Shown here: positions 5,071-37,119 of the stretch, piece after piece
Layout: every line of letters starts with the position of its first letter
Position numbering within the stretch: position 1 is the first letter of the stretch
From: a virus
Strand: one strand, 5' to 3'
Length of the DNA: 39,503 bases
Virus record (IMG/VR): IMGVR_UViG_3300033144_002727
Span: 1 to 39,503 of that record
The notes under the pieces: generated by a model
Seen by the model: the letters and a program-made list of their open reading frames with translations, nothing else
Databases searched by the model: none
Told to the model about the DNA's origin: nothing
Translations under genes and position numbers: made by a program

Positions 5071-5355
5071 ATGGAGCATGTAACCCCGACCGCATTCTGG
5101 AGCACGGTAAGTATTATTGCGGCAGCGATTGGGTCCTCCTTCCTCATGACTGTTTCTCACGCAGACGAGCCGCGTCACCCGGACGCCGCAGCGGAGGCCG
5201 ATGTTTCGGAGATCAAGATCCAAGTAACCAGGGTGGCTGCTGATGTGGATTACAACCGGCGGGCTCTGGTTGAACTGAAGGGTGAAATAAAAGATCTCCG
5301 GATTGACCAGAACCGTTCAAGCCGTGAGATTTTAGAAGCAATCCGGAGCGAATGA
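5071..5355 (+). CDS. Small membrane-anchored or secreted coiled-coil protein
   Basis: The 94-residue protein has a hydrophobic segment near the N-terminus (WSTVSIIAAAIGSSFLMTV, about 10-28) followed by SHADEP, which could be a signal-peptidase site (A-x-A-like: SHA) or an anchor end. A charged helix follows (ADVSEIKIQVTRVAADVDYN...LVELKGEIKDLRIDQNRSS) with heptad-like spacing. Its shape resembles an i-spanin or a small virion membrane protein, but a clear spanin pair exists at 37.8 kb and this gene lies in the structural module. It starts one base after the preceding stop and overlaps the connector gene by ATGA. Function unknown. Confidence 0.5.
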   Translation: MEHVTPTAFWSTVSIIAAAIGSSFLMTVSHADEPRHPDAAAEADVSEIKIQVTRVAADVDYNRRALVELKGEIKDLRIDQNRSSREILEAIRSE

Positions 5356-6107
5356 TGGCAATCAGCGGCACGTACTCATTCAACCCTGACATCGGGGACA
5401 TCATCGAGGAAGCCTACGAAAGGGCGGGTCTTGACTTGCGATCTGGGTACGATCTCCGGTCTGCCCGGCGAAGTCTCAACCTCATGACCCTGGAGTGGCA
5501 GAATCGTGGGCTGAACCTGTGGACTGTGGACGAGCAGCCACTGTCCGAGACATCCTCTGGGGTGAGCGTCACGACCCTGAGCAAGGGGGTTGCGACGTAC
5601 AATATCGACGCCTCCACGATCTCCCTGTTGGATGTGATCCTCAGGACGAACGATGGGAACTCGTCCACCCAGACGGACTACATGCTGAACCGGATCTCCC
5701 AGCCGACCTACTCCACGATTCCGAACAAGCTGACGGAGGCAAGGCCGCTTCAATACTACTTCGACCGGAAGGAGGTTCTGGGAGCGGGCTCGGCGGGCGC
5801 AAACGTCAAAAGCACGATTACGCTGTGGCCTGTCCCGGACAAGGACAGTACCTACACGATCCGGTACTGGAGGATGAAGCGGATCGCGGATACGTCGAAC
5901 CTCGCTTCGGATACGGCAGATGTCCCGGATCGGTTCCTTCCGGCGCTGTGCGCGGGGCTTGCGTACCACGTTGCTTGCAAGCACCCGGAATCGACACCCA
6001 AGGTTCCTATGCTAAAGCAACAGTACGACGAAGCGTTTGCTACGGCTGCGGACGAAGACCGCGTCAAGGTTGCGGCGAGGTTCGTTCCTCGCATCGCGAG
6101 CTACTGA
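5352..6107 (+). CDS. Head-tail connector protein, P22 gp4-like, copy 1
   Basis: The 251-residue protein starts with a helical domain (10-60) holding DIGDIIEEAYERAGLDL, GYDLRSARRSLNLMTLEWQN and GLNLWTV. This resembles the N-terminal helices of P22 gp4-type head-tail adaptors (helix, loop, helix, ...EW..DGI). A beta-rich middle (65-190) carries P-x-x-YYFDR and ITLWPVPDKDSTYTIRYWRMKRI. A C-terminal helix has RFLPALCAGLAYHVACKHP. I assign a neck role below the portal; the gp4 relation is a by-eye inference. A second copy (9343-10203) shares all these landmarks. ATG 5352 overlaps the prior stop (ATGA); ATG 5355 is an alternative start. Confidence 0.6.
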   Translation: MMAISGTYSFNPDIGDIIEEAYERAGLDLRSGYDLRSARRSLNLMTLEWQNRGLNLWTVDEQPLSETSSGVSVTTLSKGVATYNIDASTISLLDVILRTNDGNSSTQTDYMLNRISQPTYSTIPNKLTEARPLQYYFDRKEVLGAGSAGANVKSTITLWPVPDKDSTYTIRYWRMKRIADTSNLASDTADVPDRFLPALCAGLAYHVACKHPESTPKVPMLKQQYDEAFATAADEDRVKVAARFVPRIASY

Positions 6108-9139: not shown

Positions 9140-9343
9140 ATGCCTAAGGTTGGCAATAAACATTTTGGGTACGACCCTGCCGGAATTGCGGCGGCGCAGG
9201 CGGAGTCCGCGAAAACGGGCATCGCAATGGAAAAAACAAAGTCTTACGCGGCTGGTGGCGCGGTGCCGAGCGGCGGCAATCCCGTCCGTGGCGAAGGTGC
9301 TGTGATGCGGAAGAAGCAGTGCAAAATGGTGGGGCGTAAGTAA
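9140..9343 (+). CDS. Small basic phage protein
   Basis: The 67-residue product begins MPKVGNKHFGYDPAG and is Ala/Gly/Lys-rich, with AGGAVPSGG around 38-46 and a basic end RGEGAVMRKKQCKMVGRK. Many marine podovirus-like genomes carry a short gene of this design (MPxVGxKxFxY...RGxGAAxR...) in the tail module. Its function is not known to me; it could be a minor virion or DNA-binding protein given its charge. It starts two bases after the upstream stop and overlaps the next gene (TAATG). The AGG-A-V run resembles short motifs in other virion proteins of this window. Confidence 0.6.
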   Translation: MPKVGNKHFGYDPAGIAAAQAESAKTGIAMEKTKSYAAGGAVPSGGNPVRGEGAVMRKKQCKMVGRK

Positions 9344-10203
9344 TGACTATTGGAACTACGCAAACATTTAACCTTGAAGTTGTTGACATTATCGAAGAGG
9401 CGTACGACCGCGCGGGCTTGAAGATGGAGACAGGCTACGACTTCAGGGCAGGGAAGCGCAGTATCGACCTCTTGATGCTGGAGTGGCAAAACCGCAACAT
9501 CGACATTTGGATGGTGGAAGAGCGGTACTGGCGATCTGACTACGATGGATCTTTGAATGTCGGGTATCAGCCGGAGGTAGGCCAGAGTGAATACGAATTA
9601 GAGCCGGGGACTGTAGACGTTTTGGATGTCATTGTCCGCAGGGGATCCGGACTGAGCGTGTCGAAGTACACTACTGGGTGGTCGGACACGAGGTTGTCGA
9701 AGATTCCGGAAAGAAGCTACGCGGCGCTTCCGTCGAAGCTGACGCAAGGCACTCCGTCTTCGTATTACGTGAAGACTCCGGAAATCCTAAACGAGACAAC
9801 TGCGGTCGGGGCTTCGGGTGGTGCGCAGCGGGCTACGATTGTTTTGTACCCTGCCCCGGATGCGGTGACTTACAACATCTTGTATTGGCGAACCAAGCGG
9901 ATTGCAGATGCCGGGACTGGCGCGAACACGATAGAGGTACCGGGCCAGTTTTTACCGGCCCTCGTTTCGGGGTTGGCTTACAAGATTTGCATGAAGCACG
10001 GAGAGGTGGGTGGTCGGCTGCCGTCTTTGAAGACGGATTATGACGAACAGATCATGCTTCTTGGAAAATCTGCCTCTCCAAACGATGAGGGTCAGACGAC
10101 GGTTCCGACCCAGCAATCACCTGCTGCGCAGCAGTACCCGATGGCGCGGGGCAGAGACGGACAAGTTAGAATCGCTAGATCTTCTGGTCGGCGACGGATG
10201 TAG
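9343..10203 (+). CDS. Head-tail connector protein, P22 gp4-like, copy 2
   Basis: The 286-residue protein is a paralogue of 5352-6107. It has VVDIIEEAYDRAGLKMETGY, DFRAGKRSIDLLMLEWQNRN and IDIWMVEE in the N-terminal helical domain, P-S-S-YYVKTPEIL and TIVLYPAPDAVTYNILYWRT in the beta part, and QFLPALVSGLAYKICMKHG before the end. It is longer by a Gln/Pro/Ser-rich basic tail (about 235-286: QTTVPTQQSPAAQQYP then RSSGRRRM). An insertion-like stretch (WSDTRLSKIPERSYAALPSKL) corresponds to the ISQPTYSTIPNKL region of copy 1. Two diverged copies suggest subfunctions, for example one contacting portal and one contacting fibre or tail. Start overlaps the previous stop. Confidence 0.6.
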   Translation: MTIGTTQTFNLEVVDIIEEAYDRAGLKMETGYDFRAGKRSIDLLMLEWQNRNIDIWMVEERYWRSDYDGSLNVGYQPEVGQSEYELEPGTVDVLDVIVRRGSGLSVSKYTTGWSDTRLSKIPERSYAALPSKLTQGTPSSYYVKTPEILNETTAVGASGGAQRATIVLYPAPDAVTYNILYWRTKRIADAGTGANTIEVPGQFLPALVSGLAYKICMKHGEVGGRLPSLKTDYDEQIMLLGKSASPNDEGQTTVPTQQSPAAQQYPMARGRDGQVRIARSSGRRRM

Positions 10204-27903: not shown

Positions 27904-30900
27904 GTGGCGAGGAGGGCTCCTCTTCCCACTGGGGTTTCTGCGTCTCTGTATCGTTCGGTAATGGAGATGACGCGGGCCAACGATGCGTTCCCTACCAGGG
28001 AACAGTTCGCAACGCTTGGCGTCCGAAGCGAAAGGGCGATCAAGGAGATCGAGAGAGTTGCTCTTGAGCGAGGGGATGTAGTCAGGGGTCGCAGGACGCG
28101 AGCCGGTCGATACGAGTCGGACGGTGCCCTTGGATTTTCCCCGGGTTCCGAAAATTCTATCTACCCCTCTGATCGCCTTGCCGGAGAAGAGTCTGTAGTC
28201 CTAAGGAAAGACGGGAAGGTTGTACGCAGGCGGGAAAAGGGAAAGTTCGCAAAGGGTAATCGGACACCCCAGGAACTTGAAGATGCTGTTGACAAGATAT
28301 TCAGGGAGAACAGGGAGCGTCTCGACAAGGAAACGGAAGTCTATCAGGTTGATTTCCAAAACCGTAGGCTTGAGCGGAGGCTTGACGTACACGGGAGGGC
28401 AAGTGACCGTGGAGATGTTGATCCTGTCGATGTAGATATAGAGCGAGTCGATACCCCGGGTGGCGTGGTCGGTGTTAGCTCCGAAGTGTTCCGGGTGTCA
28501 AGGTCGGCCAGGGACGCGAACAAGTCCCCTTGGGTAGTGAGAAATAGTGCTGGCGGGATAGAGAAATTCTTTGCGAGCAAATCTAAAGCCCAGTCTTGGC
28601 TGAACGAGAAGCAAAAAGGTTTTGGGTTCTACGTGGACGGGAGGCTCAAGGGGCAATTCCGGACACGGCCGGAGGCGAACAGGGCGCGGGCTGCCTGGGA
28701 AGCATCCGAGGGGAAGGCCCAGGCGGAATCCAGCATCCCGGCGGGTACCCGAGGAAGGGCCGCGAAGGTAAAGAAGGCAGTTAAGGATCGCTGGAGCATC
28801 GACCCGGAAAATGTTTCGGAGCTGTCCAAGCCCGAAAGGCTTGGCGATGGTTACGTAATCCGAGAGTACGAAGTTAGTGAAGATGGGAGCTTTCGTTCTT
28901 CCAAGCCAGTGGAGTTCCACACCACACTGGAGGGCGCTCGCAGTGCAAAGGAAAGAAGGGACAGGGAGAGGGTCGGCAGGGAGGCTGCGGGTGGGGAGCT
29001 TTTGTCTCCGGGAGATGCCCAATTCATTCAACAGGTAAGGGATCCCGAAGTAGGGCCAGGGGCTGCGCTTGCGTCGAAGAAGGAAGCGCTGGTATCGGGC
29101 CTTGAGCAAAAAAGGTTGGCCCGGCAAGAGGCCAGGGAAACCCTCACCCCGGAGCAGAAAGAGGCGTTTAGCTCTCTTGAGCAACGCCTTGGAAGCATTC
29201 TGAAGTCACAGGGACTCGACCAGAGGGTATTGTTGAAACTGGTCAAGGGTCTTTCCGTGACTGAGGACGGCAGGACTCCTGCCGACTTTACGTCGGCAGC
29301 GCGTTTGATCCAAATTGCTGCTGACCCCGGGTTCGAGGCGAAGGACCTCGACAGCAAGGTCGCCGCCCTTCGTCCGTACCTTAACCACGAAACATTCCAC
29401 GCCCTGTCACAGATGGATGTCATCTCCGCTTCCGAGCGGAAAGAGTTGACGCGGTATGCGGAGAAGACCCCGGTCCCCAAAAGACTGCTTCCGCAGCGTC
29501 GTGCCGAGTTTGAGGAAAAACTCAAGGCGCTGCTGGACGAGGGGCAAATGTCCCGAGAGAATTTCGACAAATCGATGCGGCGGGCCAGTGAGGTATTCCG
29601 CCCCGGCGTGACCTACATGGACATCGCGAGGGCGCTTTATTCACGTCGAACCATTGGGGATCGTGGGGTTGCAGAAGAAGCCTTCGCTATGGCGTCGGAG
29701 GATTATGATCGCACCCGCAACCCAAGCCCTGCGGGAAAGCCAGTAAACAAGGTCGCAAGGTTTATGACCCGGCTAGGTCGGGCCGTGCGTGGCCGGAACA
29801 AGGAAACTGCCGAGGAAATATTCGAGAAGTTGTACGGTGGCGAGTTCGGGGATCGTGTCCGAGAAGGAAAGATTCTTGATACTTGGTGGATCGACAACAT
29901 GGGGAGTCCCGAGTTCGCGGAGCTTGAGGCGTGGTCGAACGCTCAGGGTCGTGGCCTTCCGTTTGGGAATCTTCAGGACAGGATCAGGCCGAGGGTAGAG
30001 GCCGAGCCGGAAGAGGCCGAGCAGGCCAGGATCCGGAGAGAAGAGGGAGAGCGGGCTAGGACAGGGAGACCGGCGGCGAGGGATGCCACTCGCAGGGCTG
30101 GTGGGGAAGAGAAGGAATGGGGTCCTGTTCCGTGGAAGATGGGCAGGAAAGAATACTTGCGAGAGATGGGCGTCCCGGGCTCGCTCTGGGATGTGGATCC
30201 TAAAAATGACTACTGGGGCGGGATGTTGGAAGAGGAGTGGCACGACGCCCGTGCTGATGCGAGAAAGCATGAAAAGGTTTGGGATGAATCCGCACTCCGG
30301 GCGTTCCTTGACGGTCGCCTTGCTTCTGACGATGTTCCGCGTGTTCGCAGGGAAAGCATGGTGGATTCGGATCTTTGGGACAGGGCAGAGCCGCTTCCCG
30401 GAAAACTCTACCATGTAACCACGAACGGCAGAAGTGTCAGAGAGTATGGGTTGTTGACCAGTGGCGAAATGGAAGAGTCTGGCATTGCGGACAGTGCCGC
30501 CGGGCTGGGCGGCTCCACGTCTGGCCTAATCAGCTTTACGGAAAGTGAAGATGTTGCCTCCGCGATAGAGGATTTTTTCAAAGAAGCCATCGCCGTCGCG
30601 AAAAACGAGAAGACGGTGGAAGATATTTTGGCGGAAGCTGACTCCGGAGAGGGGGCCGACCGGCCTTGGATCAATGAGCTAGTAAGGGACGATGAAAAAA
30701 TAGATCGCCTCAGGCGCGGTGTCAGACTTGAGACCAAAATGTCTGGAATCCGCGAAGCGGAGCTTCCGGACGGGGCTCGTGGAGTTGGCTCCCCATCGAC
30801 CGCGTCGAACGGCGAGGCAGTGTACCACGCCTATGAATTGCCCCTTTCCAAGGAAGAGATGGACGAAGAGAGGTGGCAACTGTTCAAGAACTCGTCCGCC

Positions 30901-33900
30901 CACAGGCAGGCTACTGGGGGTCAAATGTATCCACTGCTCTGGGGAGGAGGGACGGCATCGGTTGCGCGGTTTGCAAGCCTGGATCCGCAATCTGTGGAGA
31001 CGTTTGAGTTCCGTCCGCGCGGCGCGGGCATTACGATTGGTGGGCGGAGGCCGAAGGGGGTTCGCTTTGCGGGCCTGGGTGAATGGAGGACATCGGCCAG
31101 CGCGGTTGAGCCTTACAAGGAATCCGACTATCAAGAAGAGACCGTTCCGCCGTCAGAGGTTTGGGTGCAAGGCCCAAATAACACATTCTTTTCGACACGC
31201 AGGGCCGGTGGTGAAGTCTTCAATCGTGCCTATTTCGATGCTGTAAATAGTGGCGACATGGATCTTGCCCAGATGATGATCGATGCAGCGGCCAAGGCTG
31301 AGGGATACGAAAAGCGGGGAAATGTTTACGTCCCCAAGGAGGCTGCGAAAGAGGACCTTGGAAGGTCTGAGCCTTCGGACCCGGTGGTTTACGACGAGTC
31401 AGGGAATATTGTTCCTATCACCCAAAGGTTCTACCGCGACAGCGCCGCTAGGCGTATGGCGGGCGGTGATCCGAACGTAACGACGGGAGATCCGGCCTCG
31501 ATTGAAATCGAAGACCCTCTTTTCTGGAGGGAAGAGCACGCCTCCCGCTTGCCGACAGACAGAGATGAATTGGAAAGTCTTCGCCAACTGGCGAACGAGA
31601 TTCTCACGTTCATCCATGCGCCTCTCTGGAGGACGCCATACGACAAGGACAGGTTGAAGGATGATATTCTCTGGAGGTTGACTGATGAGGGTTCTGAGTC
31701 TGTCCCCGAAGAGCCCGCTGTGGTTTATGTTGGTGAGGTAGGTGAGCAGAACCCAATCGGTGTTGCGGTATGGCCGAGCGGTAAAGTCGAAGAGTTTGAA
31801 GGGAATGACTACGCCTCCGATCAGAGCCAGTCTATCGCTGAAGACTTGATCAAAGAGAGCCGAGCCCAAAATGTTTATGAGCCTGCCACTCGCCAAGCGG
31901 GCGGTGATGTAATGAAGGTAGCATCTGCTTTGGATGGTAAGTCTCCGAAGCAAGTGGTCAAGATTCTCAAGAAGTATCCCGCAAGCATCATCGCGAACGG
32001 TTTCGCTGAAGGGTTCACAGACCAAGGCCAAGTCAACCTTCTTGGTCAAAGGTTGAAGGGAGCTATGGATCTTGCGGTTCTTGGTCAGGTGTACCGGAAC
32101 CCTGGGTTTGAAACATTTCGCGTTTTCTACACGAGAGACTGGCATGTTGTCGGCCAGACGGCCACCACTAGCAGGATTCCGAATATCGTCGTAATAGAAA
32201 GCAAAGAGGAGAAGATAACCGATTACATAAGGGAGGATATGGAAAGGCTTGGTGCGAATGGTTTTTGGTTGCTGCACAACCATCCGTCCGCCGATCCGCT
32301 GCCCTCAGACATGGACGAACGGTTGACTGTTAGGCTCTACAAAGAGACCAAGGATCTATTTCCAACAATTCACCCTTCAGGGGAAAGCGGTTCCTTGACT
32401 ACTGGACGGGCTCTCGACTCAGGAACGGGATTCCTGGGTCATGTAGTGGTCAACCAAGATCGGTACGGTTACATCAACCATCGCGGGGATTCGTGGGCCG
32501 ATGCCTTGTCTGAAAAAAGGGACATCCCGGAGACATACGACGCAACACAACCGTCTGTCCCCCACGAGTTGCTTAACCGAAAAATTAAAGTCCCGAAAGA
32601 TCTTGCTAAAATTGGTTCTGAGTTGGCTCACGATCAGAATGATTACTTCCAGATTGTTTCACATAGCAGGGCCGGGATTTCTGGAATTATGGATGTTCCG
32701 AATGAATTGCTGGAGGAATTGTCATTCGCTCGGGATTCCGCCGATACGACAATCGGCGACACGCCGCGCCCGTACACGGGTAGCCTAAGGCTTGCTGCTG
32801 TGTTGCGTAGATTTTTGAATCAGACCGGGGGGGCGCAACTTTTTGCGATGAATGTAAACCCGGCTCAAAAAAAGCTCTTCCAGAGTCCGATAGCGAGGTA
32901 CGCATTCACTGATATTGTGACCACGGACGGGGAGACGCTTCTGGATCGTCCGGGTGGCAAGCTAAATTTCGGACAGACCATCAAATCGATTCGTTCCCCT
33001 TCGGTCTTTTCCGATTGGGCGCTCTCCACTCCTCCTCCAAAGCGCTTTGCAGGCGGTGATGTTCGCCCTGACCAACCTATTGTGTTTGAGGGAAGTCTGG
33101 ACCGCCCACATGAACTTCCGTCCGGTATCACGGAATTTATCCTGAACAAAGTGGTTGGCCGGAGCGAGATGGAAAATTTCCGGCGCTCTCCAACCACAGG
33201 GTTTGTTTCGGAGATAATGCGTTTATACGAAGAGAGGGTTCGTAAAGGAATCTACGTTGAGAGGGGGGATTGGGGTAACGAGGGTGAGCCAATGTATGCC
33301 CGCAGGCCACCGCGAGTGATCGGTGTGGGTGAACCTGGGGAGTCTCATGAAGAAATCGCTCACCGTCTTAGGGGTGAGATCGGGCCGCTCCCTGGAATCG
33401 TTTCGGATTCCATTATTGCAAGGAACAGAGACAATACTGAACCACACCATGAGGAAGCACCGGAGCCCGTTTTGATTGTTCCATACGACGGCACGGGGGA
33501 TGCGCCTGATGCCTACACGAATGGATACATTTCCAGGCGGATAGATGTTTACGACCCCGAACGCTGGGGTGAGGACGCACGGTCGGCTCCTTATACGATA
33601 GAACGGCCAATCATTGCGGCCGTCTCCGATCTCTGGGATATGGCTTGGGCCGCCACTCGCAAGGCTGGTGGAAGCCTTGCTGACGCGGACCTTCTCCCCA
33701 CATTGCAATCATCAGGTGTTGGGGTTGAGCCTGACTTCTTCTGGGGTCAAGTGCCTTCTGGTGGAAAGAAGGGTCCGGGCAGGAGAGGTACCCCTGTAGT
33801 CGTTCAGTCCGGGAATTACGGGGAGGATCCCGTAACGGGCCAAACCCTTGGTTACGGCGCAGCCCGTATGGACCGGAACGAAGAGGGCATCCAGCAGAAC

Positions 33901-36900
33901 ACTCCCTACACAAGCTGGAAGGAGTTGCTCCCGGCGTTTCTGGAAAGACTTGGCAATGCCAGGGTTGGTCCAGGCTCCGCAGAGATCGTTCCGGATGGGC
34001 CAATTGACCAAGACAAGGTGCGATACATCTGGAAAGCGGACGGCTGGAAAAAGCCTGCCGTGATCACGATGAGGCGTGGAGATTTTGACGGTCGCAAGGT
34101 CTGGTCTGCGGAGAACGTGTACTCCTCTGGAAACATTTATGCGGACCCCGAGTTCGCGTACCAGTCCGAGGGTGGAGTCCCCCGCTGGGGTAACGAGGCC
34201 AGTGCGGACGCAGTCCGGATCGCCTTGAGGCCGGAACTGTTCCCGCTCCAGAAGCAGCAATCCGTCCGTGGCAGGAAGAGCAGGCTCCCGCAGATGGCAA
34301 CTCGTCAGGCGGCGGGTGTCTTCCCCGAAGGAATGTCCAGCGCAGAAAGAACTGCCCAGCAGCAGATCATGGGTCCGAATGTCCCCAGGAAAACATTCTT
34401 TGAGGCGACCCTTGGGACCCTGAAGTCGATTGATTCGGACTGGATGCAGCGGGTGAGCCGTCAACTTTTTGACAAGTACGAGCGGATCTACCACATCGGA
34501 CAGGATGCTATCGACCGCAGGATTGCGGCGAGGCACCTCGCCTCAACGACGGCGCACTCCAACGCACTGAACATCGATAACGCACACGCCTACGTCGCCT
34601 CCATGATGGATACCGGAGGGATCACGAACCAATTTGGCGTGACGATGGTGGACCCTCTGGATCTTGAGAACACGATCCCCGCTGGGTCGGTGGTTGTCGG
34701 GGTCAACGATGACGGCTCGCTCAGGATGAATGAAGAAGCGATTAACGCTGGAAAATATTCTGACAGTGGCGGGTTGATGCAAATCCTGGCCCCGTTGGTG
34801 AGGGGCAATCTGGACGACACGCTGTGGGCATACGAAAAGGCAGTCCGGGCTCAGCGCCTGAGGGGCGATGGCCGCAGGGTTTCATTCACCGACACCCCGG
34901 GCCAGACGGACGATTTGATTCGGCAGGCAATAGAAACTGCCCAAAAATATCCAGAGGTCCTGGCTGCCCACCACAATTTACAGCGTTGGAACAATATGAC
35001 GCTGGACTTTCTTGAGACTGCGGGGTTCCCGCCCGAGCTGATCAGGAGCTGGAAGAAGCACAATGACTACATCCCGTTCTATCTTGATAACGATCCAGAA
35101 GTCGTTGAGGCTTTCAAGAATGTTGTCAAGGCAGACATCGGAGACAATCGTTCTTGGACGGCAATCGACAGGATCCTGACCGGGATTCCCGGGAAAAAGC
35201 TCAAGGGTGGCAAGGGTGCGTACCCGATGCTGGACCCAATGGAGGCAATTACCAAGAACGCGACCATGCTCGTTACGGCAGGTCTCAAGAACATTGCTAC
35301 GAACATGGCTCTCGATGATGCGAGTGCTGTCCAGGATGCGAGCGGGGTTGCCCTTGCGGAGCAAACGGACAAGAAGGACCCCGAGTCGATCAGGGTCTTC
35401 CGTGGAGGAGAGGAGCAGTATTGGAAGGTGGAGGACCCTCTTCTCCACGCAACCCTTACTGGGGTGTTCCGGCCCAAGGACCAGAGCTTCCAACAGGTTG
35501 AGGATGTTCTTGGAAGGCCGGCTCGCTGGCTCCGGGAGTCGGTAACGAGAAGCCCCGAGTTCATGCTGGCGAACATGATGCGTGACTCCTTGGCCGTCTG
35601 GGCGCAGGGCGGTGATGTCGGTATGCCCATCCTGGGCACGCTCTCGACATTCTCCCAGCAGATTGCGACAGGCCCGGAGACGTTCACGACTGCCGGTGGG
35701 ACCGAGATCAACCCCGTTCGGATCCTTGAGCGGACAGGAACGATTGGTGGTTACGAGTTCTCCCGAGTAGAGAAGGGAACGCTCAACCGGAAGATGCGCA
35801 GAGCGATGGGGATCAACCCCACCAATGGTGTCTCCGGTCTTCCGATGGCGCTATGGGACAAGGCGGGCGAGTGGAGTTCTGTGGCTGAGGCGGCGACTCG
35901 ACAGCGCGTCTTCGAGAACGTTTTCAATCAGGTGTACGGTGAGCTTGGCAACCTCGGCGAAGACGAGCGAGTTCGCAGGGCGATTGGAGAAGCGGCGCAT
36001 CAGGCGAGGGAGATCCTGAACTTCAACAGGAAGGGGGCGAATCCATTCATCCAGTTGGCCTCGATTGCAATCCCGTTCCTTAATGCACGGATCCAGGGCC
36101 TCCACCGTCTGGGCCGCGCGTTCACTCGTGGCGAGTTGGTCGGTGAAACGATCGACCCGAAGAAGGCATCGGTCGTTGCGCTCAGGCGGGGTGCGGCAAT
36201 CGCTGGTGCGACGGTTGGGTACACACTCCTCTTCGGTGATGATGATGAATTGGATAAGATCAGGCCGGAGGTCAGGGACGATTACTGGCTCCTCCCGTTG
36301 TTCGGAGAAGAGTTCAAATACTTCGCCCTCCCGATCCCGTTTGAGATCGGAATTTTGTTTAAGGTTATACCGGAACATTTCACACGGCAGTTGATGGGTG
36401 AGGCAACCACCAGGGAGAGTTTGGACTCTCTGAACCACGCTCTGTTCAGCACCATGAACGTGAGTTTGCCTGCACTGATAAAGCCGCTTTCTGAAAACAT
36501 CGTGAACTACAATATGTTTACGGGTGAGCACATCATCCCCTTCTACATGGAGGGATGGGGAGGGAATGCCTACCGGCCCACGACCTCCGAAACGCTGAAG
36601 ATGGTTGGCAGGGCAACGGATATTAGCCCCCTGAAGTGGGAGAACATGATCCGTGGTCACCTCGGCCAGCTAGGCATGTACGGTTTGTCTGTTGTCGATG
36701 CGGGACTTCAGGTTACGGGTATGACTCAGTTCGACAAGCCGAGCCCGAGAATGACGGACTTCCCGTTCTTCCGGAGGTTCTTGCAAGACAACTACGAGAG
36801 CGGCTTGGCCTCGACGTTCTACGCTCTCCGCGAAGAGACGGATGCGATTGTTGCCCAGGTGAACCAGTTCAAGAAGACAGATCCCGAGCGGGCTGTTGCG

Positions 36901-37119
36901 ATGCAGCAAGAGAATGTTGAGATGCTGGCGATCCGTGATTACATCAATCAGACCGAGAGGTACCTGGAGAAGATTCGCGACCAAGAGATAGCGGTTTACA
37001 CAAGCCCGGGCCTTTCGCCCGGGGAGAAACGAGAGCTGATGGACGCCTTGGCTGATCAAAAGAACATGGTTCTTCAGACCGCACCCATGATGGCGTCTCT
37101 TGTCGATGATGGTTTCTGA
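27904..37119 (+). CDS. Giant polyvalent protein: metallopeptidase, ART-like, JAMM and LPD-like domains
   Basis: A 3071-residue ORF from GTG 27904; the frame is open back to 27775 and no good RBS is seen. Residues 1-60 look like a winged helix. H495-E-T-F-H499 followed by E591/E592 (VAEEAFA) forms a HExxH metallopeptidase motif. LYHVTTNG at 835-842 with SGLISFTES starts an ADP-ribosyltransferase-like stretch. H1458-N-H1460-P-x6-S1468-x2-D1471 is a canonical JAMM motif in a RadC-like context. The C-terminal third (2140-3071) has NFNRKGANPF and IPFLNARIQG (about 2706-2732), recalling LPD38-type large polyvalent domains. Seven ATRxAGG-like motifs separate the parts. Such proteins are thought to enter the host with phage DNA and counter defences. 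Confidence 0.75.
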   Translation: MARRAPLPTGVSASLYRSVMEMTRANDAFPTREQFATLGVRSERAIKEIERVALERGDVVRGRRTRAGRYESDGALGFSPGSENSIYPSDRLAGEESVVLRKDGKVVRRREKGKFAKGNRTPQELEDAVDKIFRENRERLDKETEVYQVDFQNRRLERRLDVHGRASDRGDVDPVDVDIERVDTPGGVVGVSSEVFRVSRSARDANKSPWVVRNSAGGIEKFFASKSKAQSWLNEKQKGFGFYVDGRLKGQFRTRPEANRARAAWEASEGKAQAESSIPAGTRGRAAKVKKAVKDRWSIDPENVSELSKPERLGDGYVIREYEVSEDGSFRSSKPVEFHTTLEGARSAKERRDRERVGREAAGGELLSPGDAQFIQQVRDPEVGPGAALASKKEALVSGLEQKRLARQEARETLTPEQKEAFSSLEQRLGSILKSQGLDQRVLLKLVKGLSVTEDGRTPADFTSAARLIQIAADPGFEAKDLDSKVAALRPYLNHETFHALSQMDVISASERKELTRYAEKTPVPKRLLPQRRAEFEEKLKALLDEGQMSRENFDKSMRRASEVFRPGVTYMDIARALYSRRTIGDRGVAEEAFAMASEDYDRTRNPSPAGKPVNKVARFMTRLGRAVRGRNKETAEEIFEKLYGGEFGDRVREGKILDTWWIDNMGSPEFAELEAWSNAQGRGLPFGNLQDRIRPRVEAEPEEAEQARIRREEGERARTGRPAARDATRRAGGEEKEWGPVPWKMGRKEYLREMGVPGSLWDVDPKNDYWGGMLEEEWHDARADARKHEKVWDESALRAFLDGRLASDDVPRVRRESMVDSDLWDRAEPLPGKLYHVTTNGRSVREYGLLTSGEMEESGIADSAAGLGGSTSGLISFTESEDVASAIEDFFKEAIAVAKNEKTVEDILAEADSGEGADRPWINELVRDDEKIDRLRRGVRLETKMSGIREAELPDGARGVGSPSTASNGEAVYHAYELPLSKEEMDEERWQLFKNSSAHRQATGGQMYPLLWGGGTASVARFASLDPQSVETFEFRPRGAGITIGGRRPKGVRFAGLGEWRTSASAVEPYKESDYQEETVPPSEVWVQGPNNTFFSTRRAGGEVFNRAYFDAVNSGDMDLAQMMIDAAAKAEGYEKRGNVYVPKEAAKEDLGRSEPSDPVVYDESGNIVPITQRFYRDSAARRMAGGDPNVTTGDPASIEIEDPLFWREEHASRLPTDRDELESLRQLANEILTFIHAPLWRTPYDKDRLKDDILWRLTDEGSESVPEEPAVVYVGEVGEQNPIGVAVWPSGKVEEFEGNDYASDQSQSIAEDLIKESRAQNVYEPATRQAGGDVMKVASALDGKSPKQVVKILKKYPASIIANGFAEGFTDQGQVNLLGQRLKGAMDLAVLGQVYRNPGFETFRVFYTRDWHVVGQTATTSRIPNIVVIESKEEKITDYIREDMERLGANGFWLLHNHPSADPLPSDMDERLTVRLYKETKDLFPTIHPSGESGSLTTGRALDSGTGFLGHVVVNQDRYGYINHRGDSWADALSEKRDIPETYDATQPSVPHELLNRKIKVPKDLAKIGSELAHDQNDYFQIVSHSRAGISGIMDVPNELLEELSFARDSADTTIGDTPRPYTGSLRLAAVLRRFLNQTGGAQLFAMNVNPAQKKLFQSPIARYAFTDIVTTDGETLLDRPGGKLNFGQTIKSIRSPSVFSDWALSTPPPKRFAGGDVRPDQPIVFEGSLDRPHELPSGITEFILNKVVGRSEMENFRRSPTTGFVSEIMRLYEERVRKGIYVERGDWGNEGEPMYARRPPRVIGVGEPGESHEEIAHRLRGEIGPLPGIVSDSIIARNRDNTEPHHEEAPEPVLIVPYDGTGDAPDAYTNGYISRRIDVYDPERWGEDARSAPYTIERPIIAAVSDLWDMAWAATRKAGGSLADADLLPTLQSSGVGVEPDFFWGQVPSGGKKGPGRRGTPVVVQSGNYGEDPVTGQTLGYGAARMDRNEEGIQQNTPYTSWKELLPAFLERLGNARVGPGSAEIVPDGPIDQDKVRYIWKADGWKKPAVITMRRGDFDGRKVWSAENVYSSGNIYADPEFAYQSEGGVPRWGNEASADAVRIALRPELFPLQKQQSVRGRKSRLPQMATRQAAGVFPEGMSSAERTAQQQIMGPNVPRKTFFEATLGTLKSIDSDWMQRVSRQLFDKYERIYHIGQDAIDRRIAARHLASTTAHSNALNIDNAHAYVASMMDTGGITNQFGVTMVDPLDLENTIPAGSVVVGVNDDGSLRMNEEAINAGKYSDSGGLMQILAPLVRGNLDDTLWAYEKAVRAQRLRGDGRRVSFTDTPGQTDDLIRQAIETAQKYPEVLAAHHNLQRWNNMTLDFLETAGFPPELIRSWKKHNDYIPFYLDNDPEVVEAFKNVVKADIGDNRSWTAIDRILTGIPGKKLKGGKGAYPMLDPMEAITKNATMLVTAGLKNIATNMALDDASAVQDASGVALAEQTDKKDPESIRVFRGGEEQYWKVEDPLLHATLTGVFRPKDQSFQQVEDVLGRPARWLRESVTRSPEFMLANMMRDSLAVWAQGGDVGMPILGTLSTFSQQIATGPETFTTAGGTEINPVRILERTGTIGGYEFSRVEKGTLNRKMRRAMGINPTNGVSGLPMALWDKAGEWSSVAEAATRQRVFENVFNQVYGELGNLGEDERVRRAIGEAAHQAREILNFNRKGANPFIQLASIAIPFLNARIQGLHRLGRAFTRGELVGETIDPKKASVVALRRGAAIAGATVGYTLLFGDDDELDKIRPEVRDDYWLLPLFGEEFKYFALPIPFEIGILFKVIPEHFTRQLMGEATTRESLDSLNHALFSTMNVSLPALIKPLSENIVNYNMFTGEHIIPFYMEGWGGNAYRPTTSETLKMVGRATDISPLKWENMIRGHLGQLGMYGLSVVDAGLQVTGMTQFDKPSPRMTDFPFFRRFLQDNYESGLASTFYALREETDAIVAQVNQFKKTDPERAVAMQQENVEMLAIRDYINQTERYLEKIRDQEIAVYTSPGLSPGEKRELMDALADQKNMVLQTAPMMASLVDDGF

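Follow-up and report, generated by a model that had tools for sequence, protein, structure and literature searches.

Eukaryotic RNA virus polyproteins combine an embedded protease with one repeated type of site between their units. For phages, Iyer et al. predicted in 2017 that MPTases autoprocess polyvalent proteins, citing P1 DdrB, and the analogy with eukaryotic RNA virus polyproteins was already drawn there (PMC5512222). DdrB has a C-terminal MPTase, is packaged in the virion, and was reported to be processed before packaging (PMC5512222); P1 DarA is also virion packaged and is believed to be processed, and N-terminal sequencing of the mature protein gave no clear signal (PMC9024508). The giant N4 virion RNA polymerase carries an MPTase domain and is packaged uncut (PMC5512222). 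While autoproteolysis of polyvalent proteins is thus an existing proposal, neither a site motif, a linker motif, nor a site-protease correlation was found in the text of PMC5512222, and no repeated site set is described for DdrB or DarA (PMC5512222, PMC9024508). Nor was a description of such sites found in the other literature searched, most of it outside subscription journals. The repeated sites and a named candidate enzyme are what the present analysis adds.

The window, a 39,503-nucleotide stretch of viral DNA (IMG/VR record IMGVR_UViG_3300033144_002727), encodes a giant protein whose gene is flanked by a virion lysozyme-motif gene and by an endolysin gene, a neighborhood that is only suggestive of virion packaging and early delivery. 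The protein has LPD38 and combines several distinct domains (zincin, RadC-like JAMM, LPD38), which places it among the LPD38 polyvalent proteins. It resembles the proteins of Iyer et al. in that a single virion-type giant unites LPD38 with a zincin-like MPTase and a RadC-like domain, and it resembles the N4 polymerase in being a giant with an MPTase, although the N4 protein is packaged uncut. It differs from the eukaryotic RNA virus polyproteins in having a zincin, other modules, and a single late virion gene, and no homology to them is claimed. The relevant features are as follows.

27904..37119, + strand: giant polyvalent protein gene (ORF), 3071 aa, GTG start
28978..28998, + strand: weak motif copy REAAGGE, residue 359, upstream of the zincin
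29119..29919, + strand: zincin-like metallopeptidase domain, residues 406-672 (profile of relatives, E 2e-50)
29386-29400, + strand: HETFH of the zincin (near-invariant HExxH in relatives)
29674-29688, + strand: EEAFA, likely third zinc ligand of the zincin (near-invariant E)
30085..30108, + strand: site 1, ATRRAGGE, 58 aa past the zincin (model pLDDT <50)
31192..31218, + strand: site 2, STRRAGGEV
31444..31470, + strand: site 3, AARRMAGGD
31885..31911, + strand: site 4, ATRQAGGDV (low-confidence stretch of model)
31966..32721, + strand: RadC-like JAMM domain, HNHPSADPLPSDMD near 32275-32316 (Pfam RadC E 1e-5 on the segment; 21 relatives)
33037..33063, + strand: site 5, PKRFAGGDV (model pLDDT ~33)
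33652..33678, + strand: site 6, ATRKAGGSL
34297..34323, + strand: site 7, ATRQAAGVF, junction site, 589 aa ahead of PFLNAR
34324..37116, + strand: conserved C-terminal region of the giant protein
36241-36768, + strand: LPD38 (PF18857), residues 2780-2955, E 3e-26

Elsewhere in the window, 5352-6107 and 9343-10203 both match PHROG 12985; they are probable paralogues and flank a 1009-aa ORF with no family match.

The C-terminal 940 aa of the giant protein have 49 distant phage relatives (23-27% identity), and tblastn found no relatives of residues 1-2132 in the same phage collection. Queries with the C terminus, the JAMM segment, and the neighboring lysozyme gene returned no close relatives in IMG/VR, and in the collections searched the window lineage stands alone. 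An alignment of 13 C-terminal rows proved too divergent to serve as a search query; a pattern search of IMG/VR with PFLNAR[IV]QG yielded 120 loci with giant genes of a similar kind.

Between residues 728 and 2140, the 3071-aa protein contains [A/S/P]-[T/K/A]-R-x-A-G/A-G seven times. Matches to the pattern [ASTP][TAK]R[RQKF]M?A[GA]G number seven against 0.002 expected, with a maximum of 1 in 1000 shuffles, and R.AGG occurs six times against 0.2 expected (maximum of 3 in 1000 shuffles). An unbiased repeat search also returned this set as the strongest recurrent 7-mer of the protein (z 5.6 and 6.8). A looser form of the pattern gave nothing comparable elsewhere in all six frames of the window, and the tag was absent from every other window ORF of at least 60 aa. 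All eight arginine positions named in the original prediction are exact in the ORF, and the seven strong copies stand far above chance. The weak copy at residue 359, which had been listed with them, alone departs from the layout described below; it is probably a chance match, because it lies ahead of the zincin, in a region that is free of sites in the best-sampled clade.

The motifs had been proposed to lie in linkers between domains and to act as possible cleavage sites. For 55 sites in 13 proteins whose site lists were partly picked by similarity, BLAST homology blocks of 40 to 500 aa crossed sites 35 times against 159 expected, and the fewest crossings in 500 random placements was 60; the L099-clade count given below used one fixed pattern instead. 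Blocks of the window protein shorter than 500 aa (396-674 and 1360-1600) each fit within one inter-site interval, and alignments of 700 to 1100 aa do span its 2134 junction. Across that junction L134 keeps the domain order, reading STGRRAASR where the window protein reads MATRQAAG. Sites 963, 1126, and 1291 of L086 lie around an ART-PolyVal domain (1147-1283), and in L109 the order is site 904, LPD37 (928-1158), site 1179, ART (1203-1340). A profile built from a protein's other sites ranked its own LPD38 junction 1 to 3 of 74 windows in most proteins (window protein, 2; L040, 5; L127, 15); for L056 and L089 the tested window included a training site. Within the window protein, the interval 1330-1714 does hold a JAMM domain, as a Pfam match supports, and the region from 2134 to the end, predicted to be a large C-terminal domain, contains LPD38; Pfam and PDB sequence searches gave no support for an ART-like domain at 730-1099. 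In an AlphaFold2 model, sites 359 and 730 flank the zincin core in stretches with pLDDT <50, and in a second model, around the JAMM domain, sites 1330 and 1714 likewise fall in such stretches; the low confidence there is partly due to missing alignment depth. Block avoidance, the fixed layout, and the low-confidence flanks support the linker position, and a cleavage-site role is supported as well, both far better than the window sequence alone could reveal. The position between modules, with a mild bias of the sites toward disorder-prone flanks, would equally fit uncut docking or spacer elements, for instance for head packing or tail threading. We regard such elements as improbable, since they would need neither one tag per protein, nor confinement downstream of an active zincin, nor loss when the zincin dies.

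Because codons differ between the copies, selection had been placed at the protein level, which is only partly right for the window: its copies share 45 codons against 28 expected (p ~0.005), so that some are related at the DNA level too, and linker copying has also occurred. L091, L099, L089, and L095 likewise exceed expectation. Such excess sharing is what favors viewing the tags as by-products of module shuffling, linker DNA copied along with inserted modules and lacking a function at the protein level. In L086, L056, L090, L040, and L109, however, codons at shared residues differ as they would by chance and yet the residues are kept, including across serine and arginine codon-box switches; protein-level constraint is therefore clear in these five. 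As the inter-site segments of the window protein also have no homology to each other, a by-product of shuffling is quite unlikely.

A connection between the GG of the motif and the JAMM domain had also been suggested. Residues 1448-1481 match RadC-like JAB. The metal-binding residues of the JAMM domain (HNHP..D) are preserved, as a JAMM enzyme cutting at GG would have it. However, none of 21 other JAMM-bearing giant loci, found with a JAMM alignment, has R-x-A-G-G repeats (the one strong repeat among them, in L151, is of another kind), and the tags of relatives contain no GG. The GG sites do not travel with the JAMM domain, and JAMM was rejected as the cutter, a role for which it retains hardly any likelihood.

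Tags in other giants were sought as repeated short patterns in each protein and then by an unbiased 7-mer similarity score against shuffles, with no prior motif. R-x-A-G-G is rare in the relatives (13 R.AGG in 251,773 aa), and its wording is peculiar to the window phage; dozens of relatives have tags of their own in the same placement, including the following.

Strongest by 7-mer score: L091, GLDADRFS; L099, D[IVL]PxFSR; L086, YS[AG]RTG; L127 and L089, PxFSR; window protein, ATR[RKQ]AGG; L095, [RQ][YF]SGR
Weaker recurrent tag: L056, RASRR
Further tags of the same kind: L090, EASLR; L040, [FY]SR[RK]A; L109, [FY]SRERNP; L098, [IVG][RK]FSL[RK]

In 12 loci the tags are confined to the giant gene. 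Three further observations concern other giants. That of Synechococcus phage MinM2 (L003) has ESAR four times (residues 1125, 1329, 1546, and 1918) against 0.13 expected, perhaps another tag. Giants L004 to L009, from cultured phages (PTXU04, Vibrio, Achromobacter, Aeromonas, and Bacillus), lack the zincin, and no linker tag was seen in them. L054 contains a PSE[MI]PLDLTGL stretch twice, at residues 400 and 491.

A zincin of the L099 clade, used as a query, returned 44 loci. In 26 nonredundant giants of this clade there are 76 occurrences of [IVLM]Px[FY][SA][RK], where 1.1 would be expected. All 62 placed sites lie in the stretch from the zincin to the pre-LPD38 junction; the 11.5 kaa upstream and the 14.6 kaa of C-terminal core contain none. 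The layout does not vary: an HExxH zincin is followed by alternating sites and modules, the last site comes about 530 to 615 residues before PFLNAR, and the LPD38 region follows. The window protein follows it, its first site 58 aa past the zincin and its last 589 aa before PFLNAR. Every complete L099-clade giant with an intact HExxH (29 of 29, with 7 near-duplicate sets counted) carries at least one site. L194 (identical to L101) and L195 have lost HExxH and have no sites: the motif reads DGNVIEAL (GNVIE) in L194/L101 and DGDLIKSI (GDLIK) in L195, and EEA reads ESA and EDS. At the junction, L101 has QDIPLPKNEA where L127 has DDIPNYSKIA and L099 has DDIPNFSRPT, so that F-S-R is eroded in L101. 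The two dead-zincin giants are sisters with 47% identity and therefore probably represent one loss event. The sequences suggest that the sites depend on an active embedded protease, a dependence seen in the L099-type relatives only.

The same comparison bears on whether the tags could be processing sites for another cutter, such as a protease of virion maturation or of the host, or the second HExxH domain found in some relatives. P1 has a prohead protease, Pro, and its DarA is believed to undergo processing (PMC9024508), and the sites are basic, containing R or R-R, as might suit a host protease. The tags nevertheless occur only in the giant gene and are absent from the capsid protein, and L101 and L195 keep the second domain with an intact HELVH. 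Since the tags disappear together with the first active site in proteins that retain the second HExxH, the first zincin is the likely recognizer, and another cutter is unlikely. The second HExxH-bearing domain (HEGIH or HELVH) is at residue 582 in L099, 1175 in L101, and 1181 in L195. A separate recurrent motif, G-H-E-G-R-H-R (L089, 1985; L099, 1011; L115, 2613; and others), presumably belongs to a ParB-like domain rather than a protease, judging by its resemblance.

The domain of residues 406-672 is present in 37 giants. Its H, E, H, and second E are at least 90% conserved in 33 sequences, the window protein reading HETFH and EEAFA. The AlphaFold2 model of the zincin has a core pLDDT of ~90 and is closest to the zincins TTHA0227, PprI/IrrE, selecase, MATCAP, and ArdC, at a modest Z of 5 to 6.7 (best matches in general, all known zincins, 4 to 6.7); Foldseek alone gave no PDB match below E 0.001. 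Over all giants, a tag with z >3.5, a cutoff chosen afterwards, was found in 9 of 34 with the zincin versus 2 of 42 without it (p 0.009), and a rank test gave p 0.11; [FY]SR density alone separates the two groups poorly. The association of tag and zincin outside the L099 clade is moderate. In a more distant pair, L038/L132, QEEGFH replaces HExxH and there is no tag. In many giants with the zincin the 7-mer repeat score reveals no significant tag, and L197/L198 have an intact HETTH and lack IPxFSR sites, the only pattern sought in them; both observations count against processing by the zincin, and the uncut packaging of the N4 polymerase despite its MPTase counts against self-processing.

On balance, the seven motifs probably mark the places where a phage virion polyprotein is cut into modules by its own zincin (HETFH). 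The zincin, just upstream of the first site, would recognize the tag repeated at every module boundary and cut there, freeing the effector modules, JAMM included, from the C-terminal LPD38 region. If protease specificity and sites change together, each phage lineage would come to have its own tag. We infer the cutting and the zincin as cutter from the layout and the loss of the tags, and likewise the exact bond and the timing, which may be at assembly or after injection.

These results give the general proposal of autoprocessing specific residues and a specific enzyme that experiments can address. A search of about 50,000 phage records gave no zincin match for the tag-bearing clade, which would therefore have been missed in model phages. 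The linker tag lets giant phage proteins of obscure function be split into modules, and tag-bearing giants offer proteases with differing predicted specificities. We are inclined to think that widespread, largely uncultivated phages make a self-cutting virion polyprotein in which zincin and lineage-specific tag coevolve, so that any effector module could be plugged in once the local tag flanks it.
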